From Collinsella aerofaciens ATCC 25986 (GTDB taxonomy: Bacteria > Actinomycetota > Coriobacteriia > Coriobacteriales > Coriobacteriaceae): DNA of 64,000 bases. How positions within the stretch are numbered: position 1 is the stretch's first letter; each line of letters starts with the position of its first letter. Both the position numbers and the translations under genes were made by a program. The notes beneath the pieces are model-generated. The model was not told the origin of the DNA and did no database searches. It saw only the letters and a list, made by a program, of their open reading frames with translations. The stretch covers positions 496,001-560,000 of the forward strand of contig NZ_CP048433.1 of the NCBI RefSeq assembly GCF_010509075.1, read 5' to 3'. This document shows positions 18,394 to 35,276 of the stretch, one piece after another.

Positions 18394-18470
18394 GGCCCGT
18401 TCGTCTAGCGGTTTAGGACGCCGCCCTCTCAAGGCGGAGATCACCAGTTCGAATCTGGTACGGGCTACCA
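18394..18470 (+). tRNA. tRNA-Glu (anticodon CUC), copy 1
   Basis: 77-nt cloverleaf with encoded CCA. The anticodon stem CCGCC/GGCGG encloses the loop CTCTCAA, giving anticodon CUC. The T arm has GTTCGAATC. The acceptor stem GGCCCGT pairs with ACGGGCT with a G-U first pair. It is identical to the second copy. Confidence 0.97.
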
Positions 18471-18492
18471 CTTCTTTTCTGCTGAGGCTTAT

Positions 18493-18569
18493 GGCCCGTT
18501 CGTCTAGCGGTTTAGGACGCCGCCCTCTCAAGGCGGAGATCACCAGTTCGAATCTGGTACGGGCTACCA
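18493..18569 (+). tRNA. tRNA-Glu (anticodon CUC), copy 2
   Basis: Identical in sequence to copy 1 and 22 nt downstream of it, with CCA encoded. Both are probably processed from one transcript ending at the terminator just after. Confidence 0.97.
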
Positions 18570-20866: not shown

Positions 20867-22183
20867 TTATCCTTCCCACTCCAATTGGGAATCCTCCGAT
20901 GCGCCTTCGCACGCTCGCATGACCTCGATACCATGCGAGCGTGCGAACTCGACGAGCTCTGCGTTGCGGGCGTTTATGGTGCCGAAGGCGGCGGGGCACA
21001 CGATAAGGCGCGCACAGTGGACGAGGAGCTCTTTGGCGTGGGCTATGGTTTTATCCCCGATAGGCTCGAAGGCGCGCTCGGCCACGCATTCCGCCGCCAG
21101 GTCGCGCGCGAGCTCACAGTCGATGTCCCCTTCGTGCAGAACGCCCGCGTAGAACGCCTTGCCCTGCCGGATGAGCTGGCGAAACACGGCCGACCCCGTA
21201 CCCGCGCCGGCGATGACGAACGTGTGCGCATCGCCGTGCGGGCGCCCAATTTCCACGCTGCCGAAGCGCTCGTTGAAGGTGCCATGTTGAAGGCCGTAGA
21301 GCTCGCCAATCGTCTCGCGCGTGAATATGTCCTCGGGTGCGCCGGCGCGGAAGACCCGACCGTCCTTCACGCAAATCACCTTGTCGGCGCTTTTCTGCGC
21401 GAGCTCGAGTTCGTGGATGGACATGATGACAGCCACATTCTGCGATTTCGCAAGGTGGCGAAGTATTCGCAGCAGGTCGATCTGGTAGCGGATATCGAGA
21501 TACGATGTGGGCTCGTCGAGCACGAGCACACGCGGATCCTGCGCGATGGCGCGTGCGAGCATGACGCGCTGGCGTTGCCCGTCGCTTATCTGCATGAAGT
21601 CGCGCTCGGCGAGCTCTTCCACATGTGCGGTTTTCATGGCCTCGTCGACCCGACTATGGTCGTCGGGCAAGAGTGTGCCCATTCGCCCGGTGTAGGGATG
21701 CCTTCCTGCCTCTACGATATCGCGGCAGGTGAGGAGCTCGGTCCGGGGGCGATCTGTCAGCATAACGGCAAGGTTCCTTGCGAACTCCGCCGTCTTCCAT
21801 CGGGAAATCTCCCGCCCGTCGAGCTCGACCGCGCCGGCAAGCGGTGCCAGATGGCGTGTGATGGTTTTCAAGATGGTCGACTTGCCCGAGCCGTTCGGCC
21901 CGATGAGCGCCACGACGTCGCCCGCGCGAACCTCCAGATCGACGCCTTCGACTACGACCTTCTTGTCGTAGCCCGCCGACAGGTCGCTTATGCGGAAAAG
22001 CGGTGCTCCGTCAGCCTGCGTTTCGACCGGGGTTTCGAGGTTCGACTCCGCTCGGAGGAGGCGTTCCGCGCGCAGTCCCGCACGAGCCGAAAGTGCCTTC
22101 TGGCGCTTTCGCGCGAGCTCAGGACTGTCTAAGCATGGAATGCCCCCTCCGAGCGTTTTGGGCCGCGGCATGAATTCCCCCAT
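20867..22183 (-). CDS. ABC transporter ATP-binding protein with C-terminal extra domain (FecE/BtuD type)
   Basis: 438 residues. The ATPase core (about 62-300) has Walker A GPNGSGKST, the signature as ISDGQRQRVMLARA, Walker B VLVLDEPTSYLD and a switch His in SIHELE. A second domain of about 125 residues follows, with VIAGAGTGSAVFRQLIRQG and FYAGVLHEGDIDCELAR, seen in some metal-chelate/B12 importers of anaerobes. The first 60 residues are unusual: codons about 10-45 lie inside a palindromic repeat (22050-22154). The ATG follows the permease stop directly. Likely substrate: a corrinoid, porphyrin or metal chelate. Confidence 0.85.
   Translation of the reverse strand: MGEFMPRPKTLGGGIPCLDSPELARKRQKALSARAGLRAERLLRAESNLETPVETQADGAPLFRISDLSAGYDKKVVVEGVDLEVRAGDVVALIGPNGSGKSTILKTITRHLAPLAGAVELDGREISRWKTAEFARNLAVMLTDRPRTELLTCRDIVEAGRHPYTGRMGTLLPDDHSRVDEAMKTAHVEELAERDFMQISDGQRQRVMLARAIAQDPRVLVLDEPTSYLDIRYQIDLLRILRHLAKSQNVAVIMSIHELELAQKSADKVICVKDGRVFRAGAPEDIFTRETIGELYGLQHGTFNERFGSVEIGRPHGDAHTFVIAGAGTGSAVFRQLIRQGKAFYAGVLHEGDIDCELARDLAAECVAERAFEPIGDKTIAHAKELLVHCARLIVCPAAFGTINARNAELVEFARSHGIEVMRACEGASEDSQLEWEG
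22050..22154. repeat. Diverged long palindrome with core (copy C), inside a coding region
   Basis: Arms GCTCGGAGGAGGCGTTCC (22050-22067) and GGAATGCCCCCTCCGAGC (22137-22154) pair with two mismatches. The enclosed core aligns with the conserved core of copies A and B, sharing CCGCACGAGCCGAA and CAGGACTGT. It is translated as part of the ATPase N-terminus. Confidence 0.75.
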
Positions 22184-23224
22184 CTACCTCACTCGTTTCT
22201 TCAACATGAGCGCGATAACCACCGGCGCGCCGAAGATGGCGGTGACGGCGCTGATGGAAAGCTCGACGGGAGAGAACAGCGTGCGCGCGATCAAATCGCA
22301 GCCCGCGCAGAAGATGGCGCCTCCCAAGAAGCACGCAGGAATCACGCGGATGGGCTTCGACGACTTCAGCGCCGACTTCACGAGATGCGGAACTGCGATG
22401 CCTACGAACGACACCGGACCAGCGAACGCGGTCACGCAGGCGGAGAGCATGCTCGCTAGAAGGACGAGCACCACGCGGAAGCGTGCGACGTTCACGCCGA
22501 CGCTTTTCGCGTAGGCTTCTCCCAGCTGGAAGGCGGAAAGGGGCTTCGATATCGCGAATACGCATGCGCTCACGGTGATCACCACGACCGCGATGACCGC
22601 GACGTCGTCCCAGCTCGAACCCGAGAAGCTACCCAAAGACCAGTTGTGCAGGTTCACGATGGACTGGTCGTCGGCGAAGGCGATGAGGAAGTTCGTCGCC
22701 GCTGAGCAGATGTATCCCACCATGACGCCTGCCACGATGAGCATGGCCATGGAACTTATGCGCCGTGCGATGAGGAGCACGAAGCTGATGGTGATAAGCG
22801 AGCCCAGAAACGCTGCGGCCACCATGGCCGGGGAGGACATGGCCTGGTTCGCGCCCAGAAGTACAATCATCGTAAGCGCGACGACGAACTTTGCGCCCGA
22901 GGAGACGCCCAAGATGAACGGGTCGGCGATGGGGTTGTTGAAAAACGTCTGCAGCAGGAACCCGGAGAGCGAAAGTGCCCCGCCGAGAAGCACGGCTGAA
23001 AGCACGCGCGGCAGGCGAATCTCCCAGATGACTTGGCTTTCCATGGAATTGGCCGCGCCGCCCGAAAGGATGCCGGGGATGTGGTCTGCGGGCACGAGCA
23101 CGCTCCCGATGCACAGGTTGGCCCCGACGAGCACGATGAGGACAACAGCGAGCTGCGCCGTCACGACGCGACACCGCGCGGCGCGCCCCGATTCGTCATA
23201 TGCCATGGAAAGCCGGCTTCTCAT
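22184..23224 (-). CDS. FecCD family ABC transporter permease
   Basis: 346 residues with about nine or ten hydrophobic segments. Family motifs include IRLPRVLSAVLLGGALSLSG, FFNNPIADPFILGVSSGA and AGPVSFVGIAVPHLVK, all typical of BtuC/FecCD permeases that import vitamin B12, siderophores and haem. It starts 4 nt after the lipoprotein stop and abuts the ATPase gene, so the transporter genes form one transcriptional unit. The cobalamin riboswitch upstream of the operon favours a corrinoid or cobalt/tetrapyrrole substrate. Confidence 0.92.
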   Translation of the reverse strand: MRSRLSMAYDESGRAARCRVVTAQLAVVLIVLVGANLCIGSVLVPADHIPGILSGGAANSMESQVIWEIRLPRVLSAVLLGGALSLSGFLLQTFFNNPIADPFILGVSSGAKFVVALTMIVLLGANQAMSSPAMVAAAFLGSLITISFVLLIARRISSMAMLIVAGVMVGYICSAATNFLIAFADDQSIVNLHNWSLGSFSGSSWDDVAVIAVVVITVSACVFAISKPLSAFQLGEAYAKSVGVNVARFRVVLVLLASMLSACVTAFAGPVSFVGIAVPHLVKSALKSSKPIRVIPACFLGGAIFCAGCDLIARTLFSPVELSISAVTAIFGAPVVIALMLKKRVR

Positions 23225-23228
23225 GGCG

Positions 23229-24800
23229 CTAGCAGAGCTTTCTCAGATAATGGAAGTCGCTCGCGTCATCGCCGGTGAACGCCCCGTGCAGCTCGTCGAT
23301 AATGTCGGCGGTAGAAGTCATCTGCTGGTACATGTCGGCGCTTGTGACCCAGACGTTGCCGTTCTTCACGGCTTTGAACTGCGACAATAGCGCGTTTTTG
23401 CCTACGAAGTCGTTCAAGGTGACAACCGATTCGTCGATGGTGCCGTTGTAGACGATGATGTCGGCATCCTTCGCCGTCGCGTAGAAGCGCTCCATTTCGA
23501 GCGTTACTGACGAGCCTGACGTCGACGCCGTCTGCGCGTCATCGAGCGCGTAGTTGCCGCCTGCAAGCTCGATCATCTGCGCCACGTAGTCGCCCGCCCG
23601 CCGCGTGACGGCGGCCCCGTTTGAGTTAATGTAGAAATACGCCACGGTTTTACCTGACGACGCGAGCCCCGACGTTTGCTCGACGCGGGCCTTCTGCTCG
23701 TTGAACAGGTGCGCGGCCTCGTCTTCCTTGTCGAACAGGATGCCGAAAAGCTTAATCCACTCGACGCGCCCGAGTGCTTCGGGCTCGCTCGACGACTGTT
23801 CGGTGAGCACGACGAGCCCGAGTTTCTGCAGCTTTTCCTTCACATCGGGTGTGTGGTTGATCATGGTGTTCTCGATGGCGAGCGTGCAGCCCGAGGCCGA
23901 TATTCGCTCGTAGTCGGGCGCGCTGTACTTGCCGCCGTAGGCGATCGCCCCACTTTCGAGTGCGCTTTTGAAGCCCGCGACCGAGCAATCGTCGGCCTTC
24001 GTGCCCGACATGATGATATTGTCGTTCGCATCGAGTGCGTCGACCAGGCACATCGTCGCCGACGACACGAGGTACACCTTGTCGGCGGGGCGCCTTATGA
24101 CCGCGATGTCGGAGCTCAACCCATCAGGTACCTTCGCATCTTGCGGCACCACGAGGAAGCGCTCCCCGTTCGAAATGCAGATAAGCCGCAGGCCGCCTTC
24201 GAACTCGTCGACAGTGAAGTGCTCGGCGTATTCAAGCTGAAGCGTCCCCGTCGGCTTCCAGCCGCAGCCTAAATCGGCGTTGTGGAAGTCGGCCGCGGCG
24301 CTTGAGGCCGTTCCCGCAGGGGAGCCGCCGCTTGCTTCGTCGCCCGATTTCTCCTTCATGGTGGATGAGTCGAAGTAGAGCGTGTAGTCGATGGTGTGCG
24401 GCGTCGACATGGCGACGGTCTCGGCCGACACGGCGATGTCCTCGTCGAGCGTGACGGGTATCTCGAACGTGGAGTTGCCGCCGTCGTTTACGGGCGCGTA
24501 GTCCACGCCGTCGACGGTCATCTTGTCGTAGTTCGAACTCGACCAGGTGATGGTCGCGGTGTAGGTGTCGCCATCCTTCACAATTGTGGTTGGTGAGGCG
24601 ATGCTTGCGCGCCCTGACCCGCCGGAAAGCGAGACGCTCACAGTGTATTCCTGAGAGCCCGTCGTGGCACCGGTCGCGTTCGGGCTCGCACTGCACCCCG
24701 CGAAGGGAAGCGCGAGCAGGGCGACGAGAACGCAGGCGACCGCGCGCGCCGCGATGCTGTGGCGCTTCCTGTTTTCCCCCTTGGGAAGAATCGACCGCAT
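23229..24800 (-). CDS. ABC transporter substrate-binding lipoprotein with N-terminal NEAT-like domain
   Basis: 523 residues. A type II signal peptide ends in LPFAGC, giving lipidated Cys36. Residues about 45-150 form a beta-rich domain (TYTATITWSSSNYDKMTVDG, then FEIPVTLDEDIAVSAET) that resembles NEAT-type iron-transport-associated domains. The rest (about 180-523) is a class III (BtuF/FhuD-like) binding protein with ERISASGCTLAIENTM, KLGLVVLTEQSS and FLDIID-type helices. It would capture the chelate at the membrane outer face for the FecCD permease. The ligand is inferred from the riboswitch and CbiK neighbour. Confidence 0.82.
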   Translation of the reverse strand: MRSILPKGENRKRHSIAARAVACVLVALLALPFAGCSASPNATGATTGSQEYTVSVSLSGGSGRASIASPTTIVKDGDTYTATITWSSSNYDKMTVDGVDYAPVNDGGNSTFEIPVTLDEDIAVSAETVAMSTPHTIDYTLYFDSSTMKEKSGDEASGGSPAGTASSAAADFHNADLGCGWKPTGTLQLEYAEHFTVDEFEGGLRLICISNGERFLVVPQDAKVPDGLSSDIAVIRRPADKVYLVSSATMCLVDALDANDNIIMSGTKADDCSVAGFKSALESGAIAYGGKYSAPDYERISASGCTLAIENTMINHTPDVKEKLQKLGLVVLTEQSSSEPEALGRVEWIKLFGILFDKEDEAAHLFNEQKARVEQTSGLASSGKTVAYFYINSNGAAVTRRAGDYVAQMIELAGGNYALDDAQTASTSGSSVTLEMERFYATAKDADIIVYNGTIDESVVTLNDFVGKNALLSQFKAVKNGNVWVTSADMYQQMTSTADIIDELHGAFTGDDASDFHYLRKLC

Positions 24801-24804
24801 GGCG

Positions 24805-25338
24805 TTACTTCAGTGCGTCGGCGCGCAGATCGACGCCGGCGGATTCGAACACGAGCGTGCGGTCGTACCACTGCTCTTTTCTAATACTCCACGCGGCGCA
24901 GGCGGTGTCCTCGTCGAGCGCTTTAACGGGCACGTCGTAGGTGTACTTGCCTTCCGCGTTTTCCACATAGGGGATGAAGTCGGCCTCGCTCGCGGCGGCA
25001 GCCTCGTCGCCCGTGCCCATGAAGAGCTTGCCGTAGCCCGTGCCGGAAAGCGTCATCACGCAGTGCATGGAGCCGTTTTCCACGATGAGCTGGGCGTCCA
25101 CAATCCTGAACATGTTCGAGCTGGAATCTACGGTGATCGGATAGGTGCCGTCGGCCACCTTGTCGGCGGTGATGGGGGCAGCGCTTGCGCCCTCGGGCGC
25201 ATCGGCCGCCTGTTCGGTCTTTTCCTGGGAATCGGCATCGCTTGCCTTTGCGCTGTCGATTGAATTTCCGCCGCAGCCGGCGAGCGAGAACGCGAAAAGC
25301 GCCGCTGACAGGGCGAAGGCGAGGGTTTTCTTCAACAT
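24805..25338 (-). CDS. Small lipoprotein with a beta-rich domain, uptake-associated
   Basis: 177 residues from the ATG at 25338. The signal peptide ends AFSLAGC (lipidated Cys22), followed by an acidic linker and a beta-rich domain (about 60-177) containing DGTYPITVDSSSNMFRIVDA, FIPYVENAEGKYTY and VPVKALDEDTACAAWS. Its pattern of VPV then LDED then A-x-S resembles the N-terminal domain of the next protein. It may bind haem, a corrinoid or another tetrapyrrole outside the cell (inference). It lies 4 nt upstream of the binding-protein gene. Confidence 0.7.
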   Translation of the reverse strand: MLKKTLAFALSAALFAFSLAGCGGNSIDSAKASDADSQEKTEQAADAPEGASAAPITADKVADGTYPITVDSSSNMFRIVDAQLIVENGSMHCVMTLSGTGYGKLFMGTGDEAAAASEADFIPYVENAEGKYTYDVPVKALDEDTACAAWSIRKEQWYDRTLVFESAGVDLRADALK

Positions 25339-25402
25339 GGAGGGGGTTCCTTTCAATCGCTTCGACCGCCCGCGCCGTGCGGTGGGCGGGCGGGATGCGA
25401 AT

Positions 25403-25447
25403 GCAACGGGCATGCGCCGTCGGTCGGGGAAGGCGCATGCCCGTTGC
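25403..25447. repeat. 16-bp perfect inverted repeat between cbiK and the small lipoprotein gene
   Basis: GCAACGGGCATGCGCC (25403-25418) and GGCGCATGCCCGTTGC (25432-25447) form a strong hairpin with a 13-nt loop. There is no T-run on the minus strand. It may limit read-through or protect the upstream cbiK mRNA segment. A second smaller hairpin (GCACGGGG/CCCCGTGC) lies beside it nearer cbiK. Confidence 0.65.
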
Positions 25448-25483
25448 ACGGGGACGCGACCGGCGCCCCCGTGCGCGGCGAGT

Positions 25484-26410
25484 TTACAGCTTGGCGATGG
25501 CGTCGTCCACGTGCGAGACGTAGATGTCGTCGACCGCGGCGTTCTGTCCCAGACCCTGGAGCAGGCACGTCACTTCGAAGCCAGCGGCCACGAACTTTGC
25601 AGCCCAGCTGTCGGGGTCGGTCTCGTCTGCCATGTCGTTGTTCGCGTGGTCGCCCGCGACCACCATGAACGGCGCGAGCACGGCCTTCTTGTACCCTGCG
25701 GCGCTCGCGGCGGCGATAACATCCTCGCAGGTCGGCTCAGCCTCGACGGTGCCGACGAAGAACTGCGTCAAGCCCTCGTTCTTGAACACTTCCTGCATCT
25801 TGGCATAGTCGGCGTTGGAATCGGCTTCGGTGCCGTGGCCCATGAGGCACAGCGCCGTCTTGCCGTCGTCGAAGGACGCCATGTTCTCCTTAATGGCTGC
25901 GGCCACCTTCTTGTAGTCGTCGTCGGAGGTGAGCAGCGGGTCGCCGAGCGAGATCTTGTCGAACTTGTCGGCGTACTTGTCGAGCTCGTCTTTCACGTCG
26001 GCGTATTCCAGGCCAGCCATGAGATGCGTCGGCTGCACGACAATTTCCTTCACGCCGTCTTCCACGCAGCGGTCGAGCGCCTCGGTCATGTTGTCGATCG
26101 TGATGCCGTCGCGCTTCTTCAGCTTGTCGATGATGATCTGCGCGGTGAAGGCGCGGCGGATGTCGTAGTCCTGCCAGTACTTCTCGCGGATAGCGTCTTC
26201 GATGGCGCCGATGGTGATGTGGCGCGAGTCGTTGTAGCTCGTGCCGAAGCTCGTGACGAGGATGACCGGCTTCACGGCCTTCTCCTTTTCGCTCGATTTC
26301 TCGGAACTCGCGGAGGTGCTGGAGCAGCCCGCGAGCGCGAATCCGGCGAGCGCGACGGCTCCGGTTGCTGCGGCGCCCATGAAGCCGCGGCGTGACATCT
26401 GGTCGGACAT
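25484..26410 (-). CDS. cbiK: Exported lipoprotein sirohydrochlorin cobaltochelatase (CbiK type)
   Basis: 308 residues. CbiK inserts Co2+ (or Fe2+) into sirohydrochlorin. The chelatase core starts at about residue 47 (VKPVILVTSFGTSYNDSR) and keeps the family histidines in QPTHLMAG, MGHGTE and VAGDHANND. The N-terminus is not cytoplasmic: a twin-arginine-like MSRRGFMGAAATG is followed by a hydrophobic stretch and the lipobox ALAGC (Cys29). So the enzyme should be folded, exported and lipid-anchored. Start ATG 26410 has AGGAAA upstream. It is first in the operon under the cobalamin riboswitch and leads into the uptake genes. Confidence 0.88.
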   Translation of the reverse strand: MSDQMSRRGFMGAAATGAVALAGFALAGCSSTSASSEKSSEKEKAVKPVILVTSFGTSYNDSRHITIGAIEDAIREKYWQDYDIRRAFTAQIIIDKLKKRDGITIDNMTEALDRCVEDGVKEIVVQPTHLMAGLEYADVKDELDKYADKFDKISLGDPLLTSDDDYKKVAAAIKENMASFDDGKTALCLMGHGTEADSNADYAKMQEVFKNEGLTQFFVGTVEAEPTCEDVIAAASAAGYKKAVLAPFMVVAGDHANNDMADETDPDSWAAKFVAAGFEVTCLLQGLGQNAAVDDIYVSHVDDAIAKL

Positions 26411-26529
26411 GGTTTTTCCTTTCCTCGGTTTGCCGGTCCCCCGGCGACAGTTGCTTGTCGGCACAAGCGAAAGAAAAGCGCACCCCTCGGGGTTCACAAG
26501 GAGCTAACGCCACGGCGATGCCGTGAGGA

Positions 26530-26665
26530 AAAGGCGAAGCAGTCTGGCTTGGGGCGCGAGGCAGTTCGCCCGCGCGTCCTATACAGTAATGTCCCTTGCC
26601 CAGGATTCCCACCTGGTTCCCTCCGCAAGCCAGCGCGGGCTGTGCGGGCGCCGCGCCGGTCATTT
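26530..26665 (-). promoter_or_regulatory. Cobalamin riboswitch
   Basis: Read on the minus strand, the leader contains GGAGGGAACCAGGTGGGAAT, then CCTGGGCAAGGGAC, TTACTGTATAGGAC, and a B12-box-like CCAAGCCAGACTGCTTCGCC. These match the order and core of the B12 aptamer (GGGAA-x-x-x-GGTG-x-x-AATCC, CACTGT-type loop, AAGCCAG box). Downstream CACGGCATCGCCGTG and CCCCGAGGGG hairpins may form the expression platform. It should repress cbiK and the transporter when adenosylcobalamin is plentiful. Confidence 0.87.
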
Positions 26666-26708
26666 CCTTTTATCCGATTGTCATATGCTCGTTGCCGAAA
26701 CTTTTACT

Positions 26709-26737
26709 ATGATAGTGGGCACTTGTGAACGTGTCAA
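26709..26737 (-). promoter_or_regulatory. Sigma70-type promoter of the riboswitch-cbiK operon
   Basis: On the minus strand TTGACA (26732-26737) and TATCAT (26709-26714) are separated by exactly 17 bp. Transcription would start near 26702, just before the aptamer. No comparable promoter was found for the + strand operon in this region. Confidence 0.8.
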
Positions 26738-26868
26738 AGCCAGGGCGGGCGGCATTGCGCCTCCTGCCTGCGTATTTGCGCCGATTGCCGCTGCGGGCGC
26801 CGTGTTTTGCCCGCTGTGCGAAGGGCGGCGTAAACGGTTGCGATGAGAAACGGGAAGGGAAGGCTCGG

Positions 26869-27660
26869 ATGATTCATATCGTTGGCGCAGGCTCGGGCGC
26901 CGCCGACCTTATCACGCTGCGCGGGGCGCGCCTTCTGCGCGCGGCGGACGTGGTCGTTTGGGCGGGGAGCCTTGTGAACCCCGAGCTGCTCGCCGATTGC
27001 AAGGAATCCTGCGTCGTCTACGACAGCGCGCACATGACCTTGGAGGAAGTGCTCGACGTGATGTGTGCGGCGGATGCGCGGGGCGAGGAAGTGGTGCGCC
27101 TGCACACGGGTGACCCGTGCCTATACGGCGCCATCCAGGAGCAGATGGACGCACTCGACGCGCGCGGCGTGGACTACGAGGTGGTGCCCGGCGTGTCGAG
27201 CTTTTGCGGTGCCGCGGCGGCGCTTCGCCAGGAATACACGCTGCCGGGAATCAGCCAGTCTGTCGTGATCACGCGGCTTTCCGGGCGCACCCCCATGCCC
27301 GCGGGCGAGGGCATGCGCACCATGGCGGAAAGCGGCTCGACTATGGTCATCTTCCTGAGCTCGGGTATGCTCGCCGAGCTTTCCGCCGAGCTTTTGGCCG
27401 CGGGCCGCAGCTCCGACGAGCCGGCGGCGCTCGTGTACAAGGCGACCTGGCCTGAGGAGCGCGTGGTGCGCTGCACAGTGGGCACGCTCGCCGATGCGGG
27501 TGCGCGAGTGGGCATCGACCGCACGGCGCTCGTGGTGGTGGGCCGCGTGCTCGGAGCTCGCGGCGGGCTTGCGCACGACGGCGCGCAAGCGGAGTCGTAC
27601 GAGCGCAGCAAGCTTTACGACCCTTCGTTTGCCACGGGGTATCGGAAGGCGAGCAGCTAG
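26869..27660 (+). CDS. cbiF: Cobalt-precorrin-4 C11-methyltransferase
   Basis: 263 residues from the ATG after GGGAAGGGAAGG. SAM-dependent tetrapyrrole methylase of the anaerobic B12 pathway. It shows the class pattern IHIVGAGSGAADLITLRGAR at the N-terminus, VRLHTGDPCLYGAI in the middle and VVPGVSSFCGAAAAL. First gene of the + strand run of B12 genes, divergent from cbiK. CbiF normally acts on the product of CbiH. The gap of 130 bp upstream has no aptamer on this strand. Confidence 0.93.
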   Translation: MIHIVGAGSGAADLITLRGARLLRAADVVVWAGSLVNPELLADCKESCVVYDSAHMTLEEVLDVMCAADARGEEVVRLHTGDPCLYGAIQEQMDALDARGVDYEVVPGVSSFCGAAAALRQEYTLPGISQSVVITRLSGRTPMPAGEGMRTMAESGSTMVIFLSSGMLAELSAELLAAGRSSDEPAALVYKATWPEERVVRCTVGTLADAGARVGIDRTALVVVGRVLGARGGLAHDGAQAESYERSKLYDPSFATGYRKASS

Positions 27661-27661
27661 C

Positions 27662-28846
27662 GTGGCCTTCGAGCACTACATATATACCGGGACGACCCGC
27701 CTGCGCTGCGGCTATACCACGGGGAGCTGCGCCGCGCTCGCGGCGAAGGCGGCCTGCGAGATGCTCTTGTCACGAAAGCCCGTCGGCCACGTGTCGATCG
27801 TCACCCCCGGCGGGCTGCCCGTCGAGACGGACGTGGTCGATGCATGCATCGGCGAGGGGTGCGCCCAGTGCGCCGTGCGAAAGGACGCAGGCGACGACGC
27901 CGATGTGACCGACGGCGTGCTCGTGTACGCGCGTGTGGAACATGCGGGGTCGGGCACGGGTACTGCGGGCAGCAAGGACGTGCCCGCGCACGAATCGGAA
28001 GTTTCCGTCGATGGCGGCGTGGGCGTGGGGCGCGTGACGTTGCCCGGGCTCGAGCAGCCGGTGGGGGCGGCCGCCATCAACGCGACGCCGCGCGCGATGA
28101 TTACTTCGGCGGTGCGTGAGGTGTGCGCCGCGCACGGCTTTTCTGGAAACATTGCTGTGACGATTTCGGTACCCGAGGGTGTGGCCCTTGCCGAAAAGAC
28201 CTTCAACCCGCACCTGGGGATAGAGGACGGCATCTCCATCCTGGGAACGACGGGCATCGTCGAGCCGCGCAGCCTCGCTGCCTTGCGCGACAGCATCGAG
28301 CTCGAGATTCGGCAGCATGCGGCTATGGGGCGGCGCGGAGTCGTGCTCACGCCCGGCAACTACGGCGGGCAGTTCATCTCGGGGCATTTCCACCTAAACG
28401 GTGCGCCGGTGGTCTTCATCTCCAACTTTGTGGGCGATGCGATTGATTGCTGCGTTCGCGAGGGATTCACCAATGTCCTTCTTGTGGGACACATCGGCAA
28501 GCTGGTGAAGGTCGCTGGCGGCATCATGGACACCCATTCGCGTACCGCCGACTGCCGCGCGGAGATTCTGGCCGCCCACGCGGCCTTGGCCGGCGCGGGC
28601 GCGAAGACCGTGCGCGAGATCATGTCGTCGGTCACGACCACGGCGGCGCTCGAGGTAATCGAGGCCGCCGGCGTGGGGGACGCTGCGCGCGCTTCGCTCG
28701 CTGCGGCAATCGAGGACAGGTTGCGCCGCCGCGCGGCGGGCGCATGCGACATCGCCGCGGTCGTGTTCGACGCCGAGCGCCGCGAGCTTTTCCGCACGTC
28801 GGGCGCCGATGCAGTTATCGGGGAATTGGGGGCGACGTATGAGTAA
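27662..28846 (+). CDS. cbiD: Cobalt-precorrin-5B (C1)-methyltransferase
   Basis: 394 residues from GTG at 27662, one nucleotide after the cbiF stop. CbiD methylates C1 during ring contraction in the anaerobic pathway. Family motifs are LRCGYTTGSCAALAAKAA near the N-terminus, INATPRAMI, TTGIVEPRS and NVLLVGHIGKLVKVAGGI. The ATG further upstream is inside cbiF and is unlikely. The 3' end overlaps the next reading frame by 8 bp. Confidence 0.93.
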   Translation: MAFEHYIYTGTTRLRCGYTTGSCAALAAKAACEMLLSRKPVGHVSIVTPGGLPVETDVVDACIGEGCAQCAVRKDAGDDADVTDGVLVYARVEHAGSGTGTAGSKDVPAHESEVSVDGGVGVGRVTLPGLEQPVGAAAINATPRAMITSAVREVCAAHGFSGNIAVTISVPEGVALAEKTFNPHLGIEDGISILGTTGIVEPRSLAALRDSIELEIRQHAAMGRRGVVLTPGNYGGQFISGHFHLNGAPVVFISNFVGDAIDCCVREGFTNVLLVGHIGKLVKVAGGIMDTHSRTADCRAEILAAHAALAGAGAKTVREIMSSVTTTAALEVIEAAGVGDAARASLAAAIEDRLRRRAAGACDIAAVVFDAERRELFRTSGADAVIGELGATYE

Positions 28847-29072
28847 AGGCGTGCTGTACGGGGTGGGCCGCGCAATCGGCTGGCCGGGGACGAAGGTGGT
28901 CATGAAGGCGCGCCGCTCGCTTGCGGACACGAAGCGCATCCTTCGCGAGGAGGGCGCCTTCGACGGTGCCGAGCTCGTAGAGGACTGTGGGCTTCCGGGC
29001 GAGCGCGTGTACCGTTCGCTCGACGATGTGCCCGATCGGAGCAGCTACTTCTCGACGATGGTGGTGCGCTAG
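28839..29072 (+). pseudogene. cbiL: Internally deleted cbiL (cobalt-factor II C20-methyltransferase remnant)
   Basis: 77 codons remain where about 230 are expected. The first ten residues (MSKGVLYGVG) match the start of CbiL/CobI methylases. From about residue 19 the sequence jumps to the CbiL C-terminus: KVVMKARRSLADTKRILREE, then LPGERVYRSLDDV and YFSTMVVR, which align with Salmonella CbiL (VLMK, LPGE, YFST). The SAM- and substrate-binding middle is gone, but the frame and the overlaps with cbiD and cbiG persist. It cannot be an active methylase. An intact cbiL elsewhere, or an assembly artefact, cannot be excluded. Confidence 0.85.
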
Positions 29073-30206
29073 ATGAGGGTTTCCTGCATAGCGTTCACTG
29101 AGAGGGGGTATGCGTTGGCGGAGCGCACCGCACGCGCGCTTTCCGATTGCGCGCAGACAGGTGAAGACGACCCTGGCTGGGACGTTTCCGTTTCGCGCGG
29201 GTTCGGCGAGGGGAAGGCCGACCTGCGCGCATGGACGGCGCTCGCGTGGGAAGCGTCGGACGCGCTTCTGTTCGTGGGCGCGGCGGGCATCGCCGTGCGG
29301 GCGATCGCGCCGCATGTCGCCTCGAAGGCAACCGATTCCGCGGTTGTGGCGATCGACGAGGCGGGGCGCTTTGCCGTCCCGCTTTTGTCGGGGCATTTGG
29401 GCGGTGCGAACGAGCTTGCGCAAACTGTGGCACGCGCGGCAGGGGCCATCCCCGTCATCACCACGGCGACCGACGTCCGCGGCGTGTGGGCGGTGGATAC
29501 GTGGGCGCGCTGTGCGGGGCTCGCCGTTTCGAATCCCGAGGCCATCAAGCGAGTGTCGGCGCGGCTGCTTTCGGGCGGGCGCGTGGCGCTCTATTCCGAC
29601 ATGCCGATTTCGGGACAGCCGCCTGAGGGGGTTGACCTTGCGTCCGACCGCGCTCGGGCCGATATCGTCGTGTCGCCGTTCGCTGGCGCGAATGCAGGTG
29701 CGTCCGTTCGTGCGGCGGAGACAACGGGCGAGGTCGTGCCCGCCGGTGAGACGGGGAAGCCGGCGGGCGTGCGGGCGCAGGCGCCTGCGCCCGAGCCGCT
29801 TCGCCTTGTCGTGCCCTGCATCGTTGCGGGCATAGGATGCCGTCGCGGTGCGTGCGCCGAAGCGATCGAGGAGGCGTTTCTTCTCGCGTGCGGGCAGGTG
29901 GGTATCTCGCCTTCGGCCGTGCGCGAGGCGGCGACGATCGACGTGAAGGCGCACGAGGAGGGTCTGCTCGCCTTCTGCTGCGCGCGCAATATCCCGCTTG
30001 CGACGTATTCCGCAGAGGAGTTGTCGCAGGTCGAAGGCAGCGTTTCGCCATCTGATTTTGTGCGCGCGACGGTGGGGGTCGACAACGTGTGCGAGCGGGC
30101 AGCGCTCGCGGAGGGGGGCAAACTTATCTTCCCGAAGCTCGCTCACGGCGGCGTGACCGTCGCGTTTTCCAAGGTAACTATCGATCTTTCGTTTAAGGAG
30201 CGGTGA
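29073..30206 (+). CDS. cbiG: Cobalt-precorrin-5A hydrolase
   Basis: 377 residues, starting directly after the cbiL-remnant stop. CbiG opens the delta-lactone and releases the C2 fragment as acetaldehyde. N-terminal domain (about 1-115) has LLFVGAAGIAVRAIAPHV and PLLSGHLGGANELA; a linker of low complexity (Ala/Gly/Pro) spans about 205-245; the C-terminal domain has VAGIGCRRGACAEAIEEAF and FSEEEL-type motifs (YSAEEL, VGVDNVCE). One-base overlap with cbiH. Confidence 0.92.
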   Translation: MRVSCIAFTERGYALAERTARALSDCAQTGEDDPGWDVSVSRGFGEGKADLRAWTALAWEASDALLFVGAAGIAVRAIAPHVASKATDSAVVAIDEAGRFAVPLLSGHLGGANELAQTVARAAGAIPVITTATDVRGVWAVDTWARCAGLAVSNPEAIKRVSARLLSGGRVALYSDMPISGQPPEGVDLASDRARADIVVSPFAGANAGASVRAAETTGEVVPAGETGKPAGVRAQAPAPEPLRLVVPCIVAGIGCRRGACAEAIEEAFLLACGQVGISPSAVREAATIDVKAHEEGLLAFCCARNIPLATYSAEELSQVEGSVSPSDFVRATVGVDNVCERAALAEGGKLIFPKLAHGGVTVAFSKVTIDLSFKER

Positions 30207-30949
30207 TGGGAAAGCTCTTCGTGGTGGGGATCGGCCCGGGCGGCCCCGACGGCATGACGATTGCGGCCCGGCGCGCGCTCGAGGCGGCCGACATCGTTGT
30301 GGGGTACACGAAATACGTGGAGCTCGCGCTCGCCGCCGTGCCCGACGCGGCGCATCTCGCGACCCCGATGATGCACGAGGTCGAACGGTGCAGCCTTGCG
30401 CTTTCGCGCGCGCAGAGCGGAGAAGCCGTGGCGCTCGTGTGCAGCGGTGACGCGGGCGTGTACGGCATGGCGAGCCCCGTGCTGGAGCTTGCGGAGGACT
30501 ACCCCGATGTAGACGTGGAAGTTATCGCCGGGGCCACCGCGGCTCAGAGCGGGTCGGCGGTGCTCGGCGCCCCGCTTGCCCACGACTTCGCGGTCGTGTC
30601 GCTCTCCGACCTGCTCACGCCATGGGAGGTCATCGAGCGCAGGCTCGCCGCCGTCGCGAGTGCCGACTTCTGCATCTGTTTGTACAACCCGCGCAGCAGA
30701 AAGCGCGCCGACAGGCTCTCACGCGCGGCGAAGATTATGCTCGAATGGAAGGCCCCCGACACGCTCTGCGGCTGGGTACGCAACATCGGGCGCGAGGGGC
30801 AGCAGTCGGGCATGTGCAGGCTCTCCGAGCTGGGGGAGATCGACGCCGACATGTTCACCACCGTGTTCGTCGGCAACGCGGACACGAAGCTCGTAGGCGG
30901 CCGTATGGTCACGCCGCGCGGGTATCGGGAGATTCCATGCGAAAGGTAA
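30206..30949 (+). CDS. cbiH: Cobalt-factor III C17-methyltransferase
   Basis: 247 residues from the ATG that overlaps the cbiG stop (TGATG). Tetrapyrrole methylase with KLFVVGIGPGGPDGMTIAAR at the N-terminus, VALVCSGDAGVYGMA and VIAGATAAQSGSAVLGAPL, then FCICLYNPRSRKR, all characteristic of CbiH/CobJ. It performs ring contraction using factor III made by CbiL, whose gene is broken just upstream. Its 3' end overlaps cbiET by 13 bp. Confidence 0.93.
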   Translation: MGKLFVVGIGPGGPDGMTIAARRALEAADIVVGYTKYVELALAAVPDAAHLATPMMHEVERCSLALSRAQSGEAVALVCSGDAGVYGMASPVLELAEDYPDVDVEVIAGATAAQSGSAVLGAPLAHDFAVVSLSDLLTPWEVIERRLAAVASADFCICLYNPRSRKRADRLSRAAKIMLEWKAPDTLCGWVRNIGREGQQSGMCRLSELGEIDADMFTTVFVGNADTKLVGGRMVTPRGYREIPCER

Positions 30950-32217
30950 CGATCATCGGGGCGGGGCCCGGAAACCCCGACTTGCTCTCGCGCGCGGCGC
31001 TCGACGCGATCGACATCGCCGACGTGGTCATCGGTGCTCATCGCGCGCTTGCCGGCATCGACGTGCCGCCCGACGTGGTGAGATGCGAGCTCGTGAAGAC
31101 GGCGGACATCGTAGCCGCGCTCACCGATGCGGCGTCGTGGCAGCGCGCCGTGGTCGTGATGACGGGCGATGTGGGGCTGTTCAGCGGCGCGCGCCGCCTG
31201 GTGGAGGCGCTCTCCGGCGACGCGCAGGTGGACGTGCGCGTTGTTCCCGGCATAAGCTCAGCGTCGTATCTCGCCGCGCGTCTCGCGCGTCCATGGCAGG
31301 ATTGGCGCTTCGCGAGCGCTCACGGCGTGGCGTGCGACATCGTGGCCGAGGCCGAGCGCGCAGGTGAGCTCTTCCTCGCCACGTCGGGCGGGGAAGACCC
31401 CTCGCGGCTTTCGGGCGAGCTTGTGCAGGCGGGCTTCGGGGACGCGCGCGTGACGGTGGCCGAGCGCCTGTCGTACCCCGACGAGCGCATCACCTGCGCG
31501 ACCGCAAGTGAAATCGCAGGTCAGACGTTCGACGACTTGAACGTGATGCTTATCGAGTTCGCAGGCGGCGCCGGGTCGCCTGTGGGCTTTAGCGCATCCC
31601 GCGCCGCGAGCTCCCGCTGGCCGTACGCTTCCTCGGGCATTCCCGACGAGCTCTTTATCCGCGGCGACGTTCCCATGACCAAGCAGGAGGTGCGCGCCGT
31701 CGCGCTCGCGAAGCTGCGCCTTACCGCGACCGACACCGTGTGGGACGTCGGCGCCGGCACGGGGAGCGTATCGATCGAGGCGGCGCTCGTCGCGCGAGCG
31801 GGGTCGGTATGGGCGGTCGAGCGCAACGCGACCGGCGTGCGGCTCATCCGAGAGAACGCGGATGCATTCGGGTGCGGCAACGTGCATGCGGTCCCCGGCG
31901 TCGCCCCCGAAGCGCTCGCGAAACTGCCCGTCCCCGACGCCGTGTTCGTCGGCGGGAGCGCGGGCGAGCTTCCCTCCATCTTGGAGGCGGCGCTCGAGAA
32001 GAACTCGCAGGTTCGCTTGTGCGTGCCATGCGTCACCGTTGAGACGCTCACCGAGGCGTGCGCGCTCCTCTCGGGTTCGCGCTTTAAGGGGTTCGAGGCG
32101 TGCCAGGTGTCGGCCGCCCGCGCCGAGGCTGTAGGCTCGCACCATCTCATGAAGGCGCAAAACCCCGTGTTCCTCGTCAGCGCGCGTGGTGCAGGTGGGG
32201 AAGGCGGCGCCCGGTGA
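30937..32217 (+). CDS. cbiET: Cobalt-precorrin-7 C5-methyltransferase / C15-methyltransferase decarboxylase fusion
   Basis: 426 residues. N-terminal CbiE (about 1-205) starts KVTIIGAGPGNPDLLSRAAL and has VVMTGDVGLFSGARRL. C-terminal CbiT (about 245-420) begins DVPMTKQEVRAVALAKL, with SAM motif I WDVGAGTGSVSIEAAL. The two are separate in Salmonella but fused in CobL-type enzymes, as here. The ATG lies inside the end of cbiH. The stop overlaps the GTG of cbiA. Confidence 0.92.
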   Translation: MRKVTIIGAGPGNPDLLSRAALDAIDIADVVIGAHRALAGIDVPPDVVRCELVKTADIVAALTDAASWQRAVVVMTGDVGLFSGARRLVEALSGDAQVDVRVVPGISSASYLAARLARPWQDWRFASAHGVACDIVAEAERAGELFLATSGGEDPSRLSGELVQAGFGDARVTVAERLSYPDERITCATASEIAGQTFDDLNVMLIEFAGGAGSPVGFSASRAASSRWPYASSGIPDELFIRGDVPMTKQEVRAVALAKLRLTATDTVWDVGAGTGSVSIEAALVARAGSVWAVERNATGVRLIRENADAFGCGNVHAVPGVAPEALAKLPVPDAVFVGGSAGELPSILEAALEKNSQVRLCVPCVTVETLTEACALLSGSRFKGFEACQVSAARAEAVGSHHLMKAQNPVFLVSARGAGGEGGAR

Positions 32218-33596
32218 GCACGTCCATCCCGCGCTTCATGGTCGCTGCGCCCTCGAGCGGGAGCGGCAAGACGGTCGTAACGTGCGCGCTCCTGCGCGCG
32301 CTCGCGCGCCGCGGCCTTGCATGCGCGGCCTTCAAATGCGGCCCCGACTACATTGACCCGCTCTTTCATCGCCGCGTCGTGGGTGCGCGCTCGGGCAACT
32401 TAGACGGCTTCTTCACCGACGCCCCGACGCTGCGCGCCCTGCTCGCACGCGGCGCCGCGGGCGCGGATGTCGCGGTGCTCGAGGGGGTCATGGGCTTCTA
32501 CGACGGCATGGCGCCCGGCGTGTCCGATGCGAGCAGCTACCAGGTTGCGCGCGACACGGAAACGCCGGTCGTTTTAGTGGTGAACGGGCGCGGGGCGTCT
32601 TTATCGCTCGCCGCCGTAATCCGCGGCATCGCCGAGTTCCTGCCTTGTGCGAACGTGCGCGGCGTCGTGCTGAACAAGACGAGCGCCGCTGCCTGCGCCT
32701 ATGCGGCGCCTTCGATCGAGAAGCACACGGGCGTCGCGGTTTTGGGGAATATCCCCGCCGACGAGGCGTTCTCGCTCGAAAGCCGGCATCTGGGGCTTGT
32801 GACCGCCGACGAGGTGGAGCAGCTCTCCGCGCGCATCGATAAGATGGCCGAGCTGGTGGAAAAGAGCGTCGACGTCGACCGCTTGCTCGAAATAGCGGCG
32901 ACGGCACCCGATATCTGCGAGGAACCTTACCGGTTTGAGCCGATCGCGGGAGCGCGGCCCATCATCGCCGTCGCGCGTGACGAGGCGTTCTCGTTCTACT
33001 ACGAGGAGAACCTGCGCGCGCTCGAGGACCTGGGTTGCGAGCTGGCCTTTTTCAGCCCCCTGTGTGATAGCGAGTTGCCCCGGGGGACAAGCGCCCTCTA
33101 TCTGGGAGGCGGCTACCCGGAGCTCCATGCGCGGCAGCTCTCCGAGAACGCGCCGATGCGCGAGGCGGTGCGGCGTGCGGTGGAATCCGGCATGCCGACG
33201 GTCGCCGAATGCGGTGGGTTTCTGTACCTGCAGCGCGAAATCGCCGATAGCGAGGGGCGGCGCTGGCCTGTTGCGGGCGCCCTTGAGGGCGCAAGCGAGA
33301 ACGGGGGAAGGCTGTCCCATTTCGGGTACGTGGAGCTCACTTCTCAACGCGACGGACTCTACGGGCCGCGCGGCACACGCATCCGCGCGCACGAGTTCCA
33401 CTACTGGCAGTCCACCTGCCCGGGCGGCGACTTCTGGGCGCAGAAGCCCCGGCGCGACAAGGGGTGGCCGTGCATGACGACCACCCCGTCCCTGGTTGCG
33501 GGCTTCCCGCATGTGTACTATCCTGCGAACCCCGACGTTGCGCGCGCGTTCGCGTCTGCCGCAGTGTCGTTCGCAGAGAGGAGACGGCATGGCTGA
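32214..33596 (+). CDS. cbiA: Cobyrinate a,c-diamide synthase
   Basis: 460 residues from GTG 32214, overlapping the cbiET stop by 4 bp; ATG 32238 is an alternative. It uses glutamine and ATP to amidate the a and c side chains. N-terminal P-loop VAAPSSGSGKTVVTCALL, then CGPDYIDPLFH and GVMGFYDG. The C-terminal class I amidotransferase domain has the nucleophile in VAECGGFLYL and a later His in AHEFHYW. It overlaps cobT by 8 bp. Confidence 0.93.
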   Translation: MSTSIPRFMVAAPSSGSGKTVVTCALLRALARRGLACAAFKCGPDYIDPLFHRRVVGARSGNLDGFFTDAPTLRALLARGAAGADVAVLEGVMGFYDGMAPGVSDASSYQVARDTETPVVLVVNGRGASLSLAAVIRGIAEFLPCANVRGVVLNKTSAAACAYAAPSIEKHTGVAVLGNIPADEAFSLESRHLGLVTADEVEQLSARIDKMAELVEKSVDVDRLLEIAATAPDICEEPYRFEPIAGARPIIAVARDEAFSFYYEENLRALEDLGCELAFFSPLCDSELPRGTSALYLGGGYPELHARQLSENAPMREAVRRAVESGMPTVAECGGFLYLQREIADSEGRRWPVAGALEGASENGGRLSHFGYVELTSQRDGLYGPRGTRIRAHEFHYWQSTCPGGDFWAQKPRRDKGWPCMTTTPSLVAGFPHVYYPANPDVARAFASAAVSFAERRRHG

Positions 33597-34731
33597 AGTA
33601 ACCGAAACCGCGCTTGCCTGTATCCGCGAGGAAGTCGAGCGCGCGTTCTCGTCGGCGCCGGGCGCCGTGCTCGAAGCCGCGCTCTCCCGGATCGCGCCCG
33701 CAGACGAGTGTGCCCGCGCCGCCGCGTACGCCGCGTGGGACTCCATCGCGCACCCTTTGGGGGGATTGGGCGACTTTGAAGACGCCGTCGCGTGTATCGC
33801 CGCGGCTCAGGGGAGCGCCGAGGTGGCCGAGTTTCCCCGTGCGCTTGCGGTATTCTTCTCCGACAACGGGGTCGTTGCCGAAGGCGTGTCGCAAAGCGGA
33901 CAAGACGTGACGCGAGCCGTCGCGCGCAACATGTGCGAGGGGGCCACGAGCGCCTGCCGCATGGCGGCGTTCGCGGGTGCCGAGGTCGTGCCCGTCGACG
34001 TGGGTATGGCCCGGGGCATAGAAGACGCGCGCATGGTGCGCGCGAACGTGCGGCGGGGGAGCGGCAATATCGCGCACGGCTCCGCTATGTCTCGCGATGG
34101 GGCCGTGCGCGCGATCGAGGTCGGAATCGCCGTCGCGTGCGGATTTGTCCGCGCCGGCGTGCGCCTTCTCGCCGCGGGCGAGATGGGCATTGGCAACACG
34201 ACCACCTCGGCGGCGGTGGCCGCAGTGCTCCTCCGGGCGGACGCGCGGAGCCTCGTCGGGCGCGGCGCGGGGCTCTCGGACGCCTCGTTCGCGCGCAAGC
34301 GCGACGTGGTCGAGCGCGCTATCGACGCGAACTCGCCCGATCCCGCCGACCCGATCGACGTGCTCTCGAAGGTGGGCGGCTTCGACATCGCGGCGATGTG
34401 CGGTTTCTACCTGGGGGCCGCGGTCTCGAAGGCGCCGGCGCTCCTCGACGGGGTCATATCCTGCACGGCGGCCCTGTGCGCGGCGCGCCTGTGTCCAAAC
34501 GCCTTGGGCTACCTCATGGGCACCCACGCATCAAGCGAACCCGCAAGCCAGGAGCTCCTTCGCGAGCTCGGCATAAAGGCACCCCTCGACGCAGGCATGC
34601 ACTTGGGCGAGGGCGCGGGCGCCATGGCGTATCTGCCCCTTCTGGATTCGGCGCTGCGCGTGTACCGGGATGGGAAGACGTTCACGGCGACTGGCATGGC
34701 TGCTTACGAGCATTTCGAGGCTGGGATATGA
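33589..34731 (+). CDS. cobT: Nicotinate-nucleotide-dimethylbenzimidazole phosphoribosyltransferase
   Basis: 380 residues. CobT activates the lower-ligand base as its alpha-riboside phosphate. Motifs: FFSDNGVVAEGVSQSGQDVT (usually GDHG, here SDNG), AGEMGIGNTTTSAAVAA and HLGEGAGAM near the C-terminus with the catalytic Glu. About 30 residues longer than Salmonella CobT. GAGAGGAGA precedes the ATG. The SDNG change concerns a normally conserved His and may reflect substrate preference. Overlaps cobU by 4 bp. Confidence 0.92.
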   Translation: MAEVTETALACIREEVERAFSSAPGAVLEAALSRIAPADECARAAAYAAWDSIAHPLGGLGDFEDAVACIAAAQGSAEVAEFPRALAVFFSDNGVVAEGVSQSGQDVTRAVARNMCEGATSACRMAAFAGAEVVPVDVGMARGIEDARMVRANVRRGSGNIAHGSAMSRDGAVRAIEVGIAVACGFVRAGVRLLAAGEMGIGNTTTSAAVAAVLLRADARSLVGRGAGLSDASFARKRDVVERAIDANSPDPADPIDVLSKVGGFDIAAMCGFYLGAAVSKAPALLDGVISCTAALCAARLCPNALGYLMGTHASSEPASQELLRELGIKAPLDAGMHLGEGAGAMAYLPLLDSALRVYRDGKTFTATGMAAYEHFEAGI

Positions 34732-35276
34732 CGGTGACGTTCGTTATCGGCGCCGCCGCGAGCGGCAAGAGCGCCTATGCCGAGTCCCTGTGCCTCGGGC
34801 ACGACGGCCCCCGCGTGTACCTGGCAACGATGGAGCCCTTCGGGGAAGAGGGCGCCCGCCGCATCGCGCGCCATCGGGCGCTGCGCGAGGGCAAGGGGTT
34901 TTCCACCCTCGAGCGCACGCGTGACGTGGGCGCCGCAGTGCCCGGGCTTCCTCGCGGCTGCACGCTTCTTTTGGAGGACGTGGGCAACCTGGTTGCAAAC
35001 GAGCTTTTCGCGGAAGGCGGCTTGTCCCCGCGTGACCCCGACGCTGTGGCGCGCGAGGTGCTCGGAGGCATTGAACGGCTCGCTCAGGCCGCTGCGTATA
35101 CGGTGGTGGTCTCCGTTGACGTGTTCGCCGATGGGATGCGCTACGATGAGGGGACCGAGGCATGGAGGCGCGCGCTCGCGCGCGTGAACGCGGGCGTGGC
35201 GGCGCTGGCCGACCGCGCAGTCGAAGTGGTATGCGGGATTCCCGTGTGGATGAAAGGCGAAGGACCTATAAGGTGA
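34728..35276 (+). CDS. cobU: Adenosylcobinamide kinase / guanylyltransferase
   Basis: 182 residues, normal for CobU. The P-loop is GAAASGKSAYAE (residues about 8-19), followed by YLATMEPFGEEGARRIARHR with the guanylylated-His region, LLEDVGNLVANELF, and CGIPVWMKG at the end. It phosphorylates adenosylcobinamide and transfers GMP to give AdoCbi-GDP for CobS. ATGA overlap with cobT and GTGA overlap with cobS. Confidence 0.93.
   Translation: MTVTFVIGAAASGKSAYAESLCLGHDGPRVYLATMEPFGEEGARRIARHRALREGKGFSTLERTRDVGAAVPGLPRGCTLLLEDVGNLVANELFAEGGLSPRDPDAVAREVLGGIERLAQAAAYTVVVSVDVFADGMRYDEGTEAWRRALARVNAGVAALADRAVEVVCGIPVWMKGEGPIR

Follow-up and report, generated by a model that had tools for sequence, protein, structure and literature searches.

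A 64,000-nucleotide window of the Collinsella aerofaciens ATCC 25986 genome (contig NZ_CP048433.1, positions 496,001 to 560,000; G000:C1:496001-560000 in our numbering of a 2.46 Mb, 99.9% complete assembly) carries on its minus strand, from 26410 to 20867, a five-gene operon encoding a CbiK-family chelatase, two further lipoproteins, a FecCD-type permease, and an ATPase. On balance we think that a shortened B12 pathway begins with this operon, by which an external ring at the sirohydrochlorin level would be captured, metallated outside the cell, and imported; we infer the cargo, its metallation before import, and the activity of the chelatase. What can be read directly from the DNA are i) export signals; ii) conserved metal-site residues; iii) gene fusions; iv) cobalamin riboswitches in related operons; and v) our failure to detect HemC, uroporphyrinogen methyltransferase (SUMT), SirC, or a second CbiK or CbiX.

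The operon is compact. CbiK, a Tat-type (twin-arginine translocation) lipoprotein of 308 amino acids from the class II cobalt chelatase family (25484..26410, minus strand; PF06180, 267 bits), is followed on the same strand by a 177 amino acid lipoprotein with a NEAT-like domain A (24805..25338); a 523 amino acid binding lipoprotein in which NEAT-like domain B precedes a Peripla_BP_2 core (23229..24800; 107 bits at residues 245-488); a FecCD/BtuC-type permease (22184..23224; PF01032, 273 bits); and an ATP-binding cassette (ABC) ATPase with a C-terminal extension of about 130 amino acids (20867..22183; ABC_tran, 109 bits). From CbiK onward, successive open reading frames (ORFs) are separated by 0 to 145 bases, confirming the original prediction of a single operon of CbiK, two lipoproteins, and a FecCD-type importer; a cbi/cob cluster is transcribed divergently on the plus strand, beginning at 26869. 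The ATPase extension (20870-21280, minus strand) matches no Pfam family (best E 0.17), although the corrinoid ABC ATPase model reaches into part of it.

The N-terminus of the window CbiK, MSDQMSRRGFMGAAATGAVALAGFALAGC, combines a twin-arginine motif with a lipobox, in line with the predicted twin-arginine-like lipoprotein signal; orthologs of 67% and 57% identity from two other genomes retain the two arginines as well as the cysteine of the lipobox. TatC is present in the window genome and in 62 of the 65 family genomes, so that missing Tat machinery can be rejected. We also considered an internal start that would yield a cytosolic CbiK, there being a Shine-Dalgarno-like AAGGAG before a GTG at the linker of the window protein, and dropped it because the orthologous proteins of genomes G042 and G063, compared by eye at the protein level, have no such linker start. 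The PF06180 match covers model positions 3-261 of 262; the score against the NCBIfam SiroCoChCbiK equivalog is 227 bits, under the cut-off of 400; and the relatives in the PDB are 1qgo, 9b86 (FetB, second best, E 9e-38), and 2xvx (E 6e-33).

A contig scan with two patterns derived from exported copies gave at least 544 relatives, of which we analyzed the best 80 loci. His129, His192, Glu223, and His255 of the window CbiK are kept in all 80 exported relatives, and three of the four align with Salmonella His145, Glu175, and His207, which we take to be CbiK metal-site residues. Because four metal-site or pocket residues are thus conserved throughout, the exported CbiK has likely been kept as a catalyst; the CbiK family binds Co2+, and we infer insertion of Co2+ into sirohydrochlorin as the putative activity of the window protein. 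A lipobox pattern fits 71 of the 80 relatives and the remaining 9 have signal-like N-termini by eye, a share that is no frequency of export, exported copies having supplied the search patterns; the corresponding count of Tat motifs (9 of 80) is unreliable, as start-picking trimmed some signals.

The chelatase stands alone in its genome. It is the sole PF06180 match and the sole CbiX-type match there; neither HemC nor SUMT was detected in the window genome (HemA, HemB, and HemD were not searched there), nor was a SirC-grade match. CbiD occurs in 18 of the 65 family genomes, the same 18 that hold a close CbiK (at least 58% identity), and the CbiX matches of these 18 fall inside that close CbiK. 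HemC was found in none of the 18 CbiD-positive genomes and in 3 of the 65, the control genomes being positive in 11 of 14 cases; SUMT exceeded its cut-off in none of the 18 and in 6 of the 65, the weaker SUMT matches of the 18 lying in the cob cluster (coordinates checked singly for G000 only); and a SirC-grade match (85-106 bits) was absent from 17 of the 18, where the best score was 23 bits, leaving G063 as the only CbiD-positive genome with one. Because HemC, SUMT, and SirC went undetected, it would appear that by known enzymes the 18 genomes cannot make uroporphyrinogen III or precorrin-2, and 17 of them cannot make sirohydrochlorin either; they nonetheless keep the genes acting after cobalt insertion. 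The original prediction had placed this chelatase outside cytoplasmic sirohydrochlorin metallation. The protein does carry export signals, but the parallel cytoplasmic step which that argument took for granted was not detected (CbiK/CbiX, HemC, SUMT, or SirC). Of the roles suggested for CbiK, the loading of scavenged tetrapyrroles with metal stands up best.

More distant CbiK-like family matches (about 30% identity) were rejected as exported copies, since those that we read as complete ORFs are signal-less and mostly CbiK-SirC fusions. Seven loci (L036, L038, L039, and L041-L044) hold such signal-less fusions, 5 of the 7 genomes lacking HemC and SUMT, and some of the fusions adjoin an 860-880 amino acid disulfide reductase/sulfite reductase fusion.

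Pairing of a surface CbiK with a dedicated importer had been called notable in a Gram-positive, and it is no peculiarity of a single organism: the complete set of lipoprotein, binding protein, permease, and ATPase is present in 56 of the 60 loci with more than 6 kb of downstream sequence, across Coriobacteriia and Clostridia, and in 62 of the 80 loci overall, 56 of these in the gene order of the window. Most hosts belong to the Coriobacteriia, Lachnospiraceae, or Oscillospiraceae; one is a Treponema metagenome-assembled genome (MAG). Among the loci longer than 15 kb, ring-forming cbi genes lie within the flanks retrieved in 28 of 54, and any cob gene in 34 of 54.

For 50 of the 80 loci we searched whole genomes, including MAGs, for HemC and a second CbiK; HemC was absent from 31 and present in 19. 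A second PF06180 match occurs in 12 of the 50, namely 10 of 19 genomes with HemC compared with 2 of 31 without (Fisher 3.7e-4; neither this nor the following Fisher values for the 50 genomes are corrected for kinship or MAG completeness). A signal-less second CbiK is found in 9 of 19 compared with 0 of 31 (Fisher 3.7e-5), a grouping that was made after inspection and leaves out the two distant copies (24-29% identical) of HemC-negative genomes G071 and G099, and in which the signal-less call for G084 and G111 comes from open frames of only 277 and 268 amino acids. Four of the nine signal-less copies lie within 6 kb of hemC. In a CbiK tree built without L135 and L141 (frames of 277 and 268 amino acids, which leave no room for a signal ahead of the domain), six signal-less copies group with support 81/98, and L140, on a long branch, falls among the exported copies; the root and many forks of this tree are unsure. 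Omitting L140 (G107) leaves 8 of 19 compared with 0 of 31 (1.4e-4). The remaining HemC-positive second match is that of G104 (L139), an exported ORF of 589 amino acids with two tandem chelatase domains. Genomes with the capacity to make the ring internally often keep a chelatase inside, while the others, two distant relatives aside, have only the one outside.

The window lipoprotein corresponds to domain A of a two-domain Clostridia lipoprotein (L082; 61% identity over 110 amino acids); domain B of L082 has its counterpart at the N-terminus of the window binding protein (52% identity over 98 amino acids). Taken singly, the window copies match NEAT weakly or not at all: PF05031 scores 13 bits (E 0.15) for domain A against a Pfam cut-off of 32.8, domain B has no NEAT match in the Pfam scan, and L082 domain B reaches 25.5 bits, also under the cut-off. 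In an alignment of the two-domain lipoprotein family (A3), 35 of 42 members match NEAT at E <=0.05 (best 3.2e-11). A W-Y pair is invariant at the position of the NEAT tyrosine motif, and the predicted structure of the L082 homolog is almost all strand (predicted local distance difference test, pLDDT, 93.4). On sequence grounds the lipoproteins probably carry NEAT-like domains, and may bind rings. CbiK and both NEAT-like domains occupy a single exported ORF at L086 (624 amino acids) and L121 (579 amino acids), and both NEAT-like domains are joined to the binding protein at L074 (700 amino acids) and L123 (688 amino acids), as located by tblastn in one frame; in Pfam, L086 shows CbiK plus a sub-cut-off NEAT match, L121 CbiK only, and L074 Peripla_BP_2 only. 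Together the fusions and the NEAT matches argue for hand-over of a ring along a relay from chelatase to importer. Neither the NEAT-like domains, nor the undetected early tetrapyrrole enzymes and other CbiK or CbiX proteins, nor the wide spread of the operon figured in the original prediction.

The predicted riboswitch control is better supported for the family than for the operon of the window. The degenerate cobalamin riboswitch upstream of cbiK (26543..26670, minus strand) scores 16.2 bits (E 0.073) against RF00174, about half of the gathering threshold of 31.5, which it does not reach; its core, GGGAA-CAGGTG-GAATCCTG-GCAAGGG-CATTACTGT ... AGCCAG, is conserved in the diverged genomes G042 and G063. 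The G063 copy (L035) scores 24 bits; for the G042 copy (L034), and likewise for L005 and L009, which are close to that of the window, Rfam reports no RF00174 match at E values up to 1. Among 21 homologous loci scanned, 17 have an upstream cobalamin riboswitch above gathering (59-118 bits), and at the other four (L053, L058, L062, and L113) nothing clears the threshold; at L117 the riboswitch precedes the importer genes, which stand first in that locus. Strong riboswitches at 17 of 21 loci make a good case that the system is under B12 control, which the window copy probably shares by descent.

In the pathway that we favor, i) other organisms would release an isobacteriochlorin at the sirohydrochlorin level; ii) CbiK on the outer face of the membrane would insert Co2+ into it, or exchange its metal, before or during uptake, and may first strip iron from siroheme; iii) the NEAT-like domains would take the ring and the binding lipoprotein would pass it to the FecCD/ATPase importer; iv) the divergent cbi/cob cluster would convert the imported ring to a cobamide; and v) cobalamin would repress the route via the riboswitch. 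We put forward more tentatively, and with slightly more doubt than confidence, the wider proposal that many different gut anaerobes now carry out the cobalt step of B12 synthesis outside the cell: a surface chelatase would metallate an isobacteriochlorin drawn from the community, and a NEAT relay and ABC importer would deliver cobalt-sirohydrochlorin into a pathway stripped of its earlier steps.

In order on the plus strand, the divergent cluster contains cbiF (26869..27660; TIGR01465, 308 bits), cbiD (27494..28846 as listed, the true start being later; TIGR00312, 390 bits), a cbiL remnant (28839..29072), cbiG (29073..30206), cbiH (30203..30949; TIGR01466, 293 bits), a cbiE-cbiT fusion (30622..32217 as listed, true start again later; TIGR02467 and TIGR02469), cbiA (32100..33596 as listed), cobT, cobU, and cobS (33496..36040), and cobC, cbiB, cobD, cbiP, btuR/cobA, and cbiC (35743..41878, the first listed ORF overlapping cobS). 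Only steps after cobalt insertion were found in the cluster, and none of its scanned ORFs (26869-41878) matches CbiJ (precorrin-6A reductase). Two cluster-bearing Eggerthellaceae, Ellagibacter (L053) and Gordonibacter (L054), have cluster proteins 90-100% identical to those of Collinsella, which suggests recent horizontal transfer. Elsewhere in the window, two tRNA genes with the same score of 62.3 bits lie 99 bases apart at 18394-18566 on the plus strand.

Several observations weigh against the pathway we propose, the first of them in this cluster. An in-frame deletion of 152 codons in cbiL, common to 12 of 16 close genomes including that of the window, leaves 77 amino acids of the 229 in intact copies, and Ellagibacter (L053) has a separate in-frame deletion of 95 codons; cbiL is intact in G005, G006, G015, G022, G042, and G063 and in records L054, L055, and L057. 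The ring-building half of the pathway may be dead in the cbiL-deleted strains, which have either stopped building the ring or use a ring already methylated at C20, and the case for the window strain is weakened because its own cbiL is internally deleted. We found no stops in cbiD, cbiG, or cbiH, whose ratios of nonsynonymous to synonymous substitution (dN/dS) are 0.03-0.36 across cbiL-deleted and intact groups and 0.09-0.36 in the deleted genomes; splitting them by cbiL state reveals no clear relaxation, with a hint for cbiH (0.094 vs 0.028).

The comparative evidence has its own weak points. The 18 CbiD-positive genomes are kin, with a cluster that is syntenic where compared, and so represent one or a few events rather than 18. 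Salvage is not obligatory everywhere, since 19 of the 50 operon-bearing genomes have HemC; in 10 of these 19 no second CbiK without a signal was seen, Gordonibacter combines HemA, HemB, and HemC with a single CbiK, and HemC loss is not significantly associated with nearby ring genes (19 of 25 vs 12 of 25, Fisher 0.08). Nor is the set of partners always complete: L061 (the G063 locus) and L094 are without permease and ATPase, L063 without permease, ATPase, and binding protein, and L099 without the lipoprotein, and G063, where neither permease nor ATPase follows the binding protein in the DNA fetched, is the most diverged member of the 18. Corrinoid transporters are the best-scoring families for the permease and the ATPase, parts of the NEAT and Lmo2184-like kinds are familiar chiefly from heme uptake, and the whole proposal is built from sequence.

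Some of these points speak for a corrinoid importer, the likeliest of the alternatives though in our view an unlikely one, in which the ABC system would take up cobamides or cobinamide in the manner of BtuFCD, the surface CbiK would be an accessory that reloads cobalt or binds corrinoids, and the cbi genes would be a decaying remnant. The best NCBIfam matches are indeed BtuC for the permease (212 bits) and the corrinoid ABC ATPase PRK09536 for the ATPase (249 bits); the cobalamin riboswitch, the cbiL deletions, and the listing of C. aerofaciens as B12-requiring all fit. Both matches are, however, below their curated cut-offs (334 and 537 bits), so that neither window protein reaches the equivalog level for BtuCD corrinoid importers, and such an importer would leave unexplained the chelatase site kept in 80 of 80 relatives, the CbiK-NEAT fusions, the finding that none of the 31 HemC-negative genomes searched has a signal-less CbiK (two of them hold distant relatives), and dN/dS below 0.4 in three ring genes.

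A further locus bears on the pathway we favor as well as on corrinoids and heme. In G059 (L045) a related importer (binding protein 50% and permease 67% identical) has no exported CbiK or NEAT lipoprotein alongside, which favors an importer of corrinoids; it adjoins a signal-less CbiK-like gene and a gene for an 879 amino acid protein with sulfite/nitrite reductase domains, and this genome has no HemC, SUMT, CbiD, or SirC-grade match. Sulfite/nitrite reductases are a siroheme-enzyme family, and siroheme and B12 share sirohydrochlorin as a precursor. We take sirohydrochlorin to be the shared need, in support of the pathway we favor, and an importer for it would serve both routes; the context also fits a general corrinoid or heme importer.

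Heme acquisition of the Isd/Iht kind, with CbiK removing or exchanging heme iron at the surface and the importer taking heme, porphyrin, or iron, strikes us as improbable, more so than corrinoid import. Surface iron removal or exchange has been proposed for Porphyromonas gingivalis FetB/IhtB, whose structure 9b86 is the second best PDB relative of the window CbiK; the lipoproteins have NEAT matches; and the binding-protein core profile finds as its best PDB match Lmo2184 (5joq, E 3e-8), presumably a heme-uptake protein, while the binding protein itself weakly matches IsdE (21 bits). Cobalamin riboswitches at 17 of 21 loci and ring-forming cbi genes near 28 of the 54 longer loci speak against heme as the cargo, and the alternative role as a heme or metal binder that had originally been offered for CbiK is weakened accordingly. 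Simple cobalt uptake, with CbiK and the lipoproteins handing Co2+ or a cobalt complex to the importer, would suit the Co2+-binding of the CbiK family and the B12-type regulation, but we give it very little credence, as NEAT-like domains, like a Peripla_BP_2 protein paired with a FecCD permease, suit macrocycles or chelates and the gap in sirohydrochlorin supply would be left unrepaired.

Parts of the proposed pathway have counterparts in known systems. The Isd heme relay consists of a chain of NEAT domains leading to a Peripla_BP_2 lipoprotein, a FecCD permease, and an ATPase, an arrangement the window operon resembles; the window operon differs from Isd in its weak NEAT scores, in its link to a chelatase, and in the B12 control seen among relatives. 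The periplasmic CbiK of Desulfovibrio vulgaris (2xvx) is presumably the exported protein encoded by cbiK of the Desulfovibrio operon discussed next; Desulfovibrio differs from the window organism in having a second, cytoplasmic CbiK and in making its own tetrapyrroles. In the accessible sections of Rodionov 2004, a B12 element lies over cbiK-cbiL and btuCDF in Desulfovibrio, so that a CbiK relative, a B12 element, and a linked Btu/Fec-type ABC importer recur there, and these sections mention no NEAT lipoprotein (PMC545781).

The FetB/IhtB system of P. gingivalis likewise centers on a CbiK-family protein, and differs in having been studied as a heme/Mn-porphyrin system. We know of no cobalamin riboswitch or NEAT partner for it. 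Two sources present FetB/IhtB as a porphyrin chelatase (PMC13402209, PMC13227078), one of them describing an exchange of porphyrin metals (PMC13402209). Its host is reported to be without the steps to precorrin-2 (PMC6461909), a further resemblance to the window organism.

The pathway we favor would also give a route to a class of organisms already recognized. Shelton 2018, in its accessible part, defines tetrapyrrole-precursor salvagers, for which only salvage of 5-aminolevulinic acid was verified by experiment (PMC6461909), and class sizes are given in PMC8123684. Such salvagers have corrin and nucleotide-loop genes without the precursor genes, a pattern that the window strain, with its deleted cbiL, resembles, and C. 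aerofaciens is named among them. According to the available sections of Rodionov 2019, C. aerofaciens is B12-requiring despite a complete B12 gene set, precorrin-2 auxotrophy being suggested, and the transport of B12 precursors is an open problem (PMC6593275). Titles and abstract openings, with subscription papers outside the search, yielded no report that ties precursor salvage to an exported CbiK with its importer; precorrin-2 auxotrophs have been described, and so, separately, have relatives of the surface CbiK, and in this material we did not find described a role for an exported CbiK in feeding a headless B12 pathway.

For the predicted precorrin-2 auxotrophs of the gut, the literature as far as we could consult it names no uptake system, and in the accessible text the reported B12 requirement of C. 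aerofaciens has so far only a suggested explanation; a named, B12-controlled operon makes the question testable. If our reading is correct, B12 producers predicted from genomes with CbiK taken as the cytoplasmic step would be miscalled in many gut Coriobacteriia and Clostridia; cobalt insertion would be an extracellular committed step; and sirohydrochlorin or siroheme would be a public good of the gut, where the ring intermediate that stands between siroheme and B12 would be traded.

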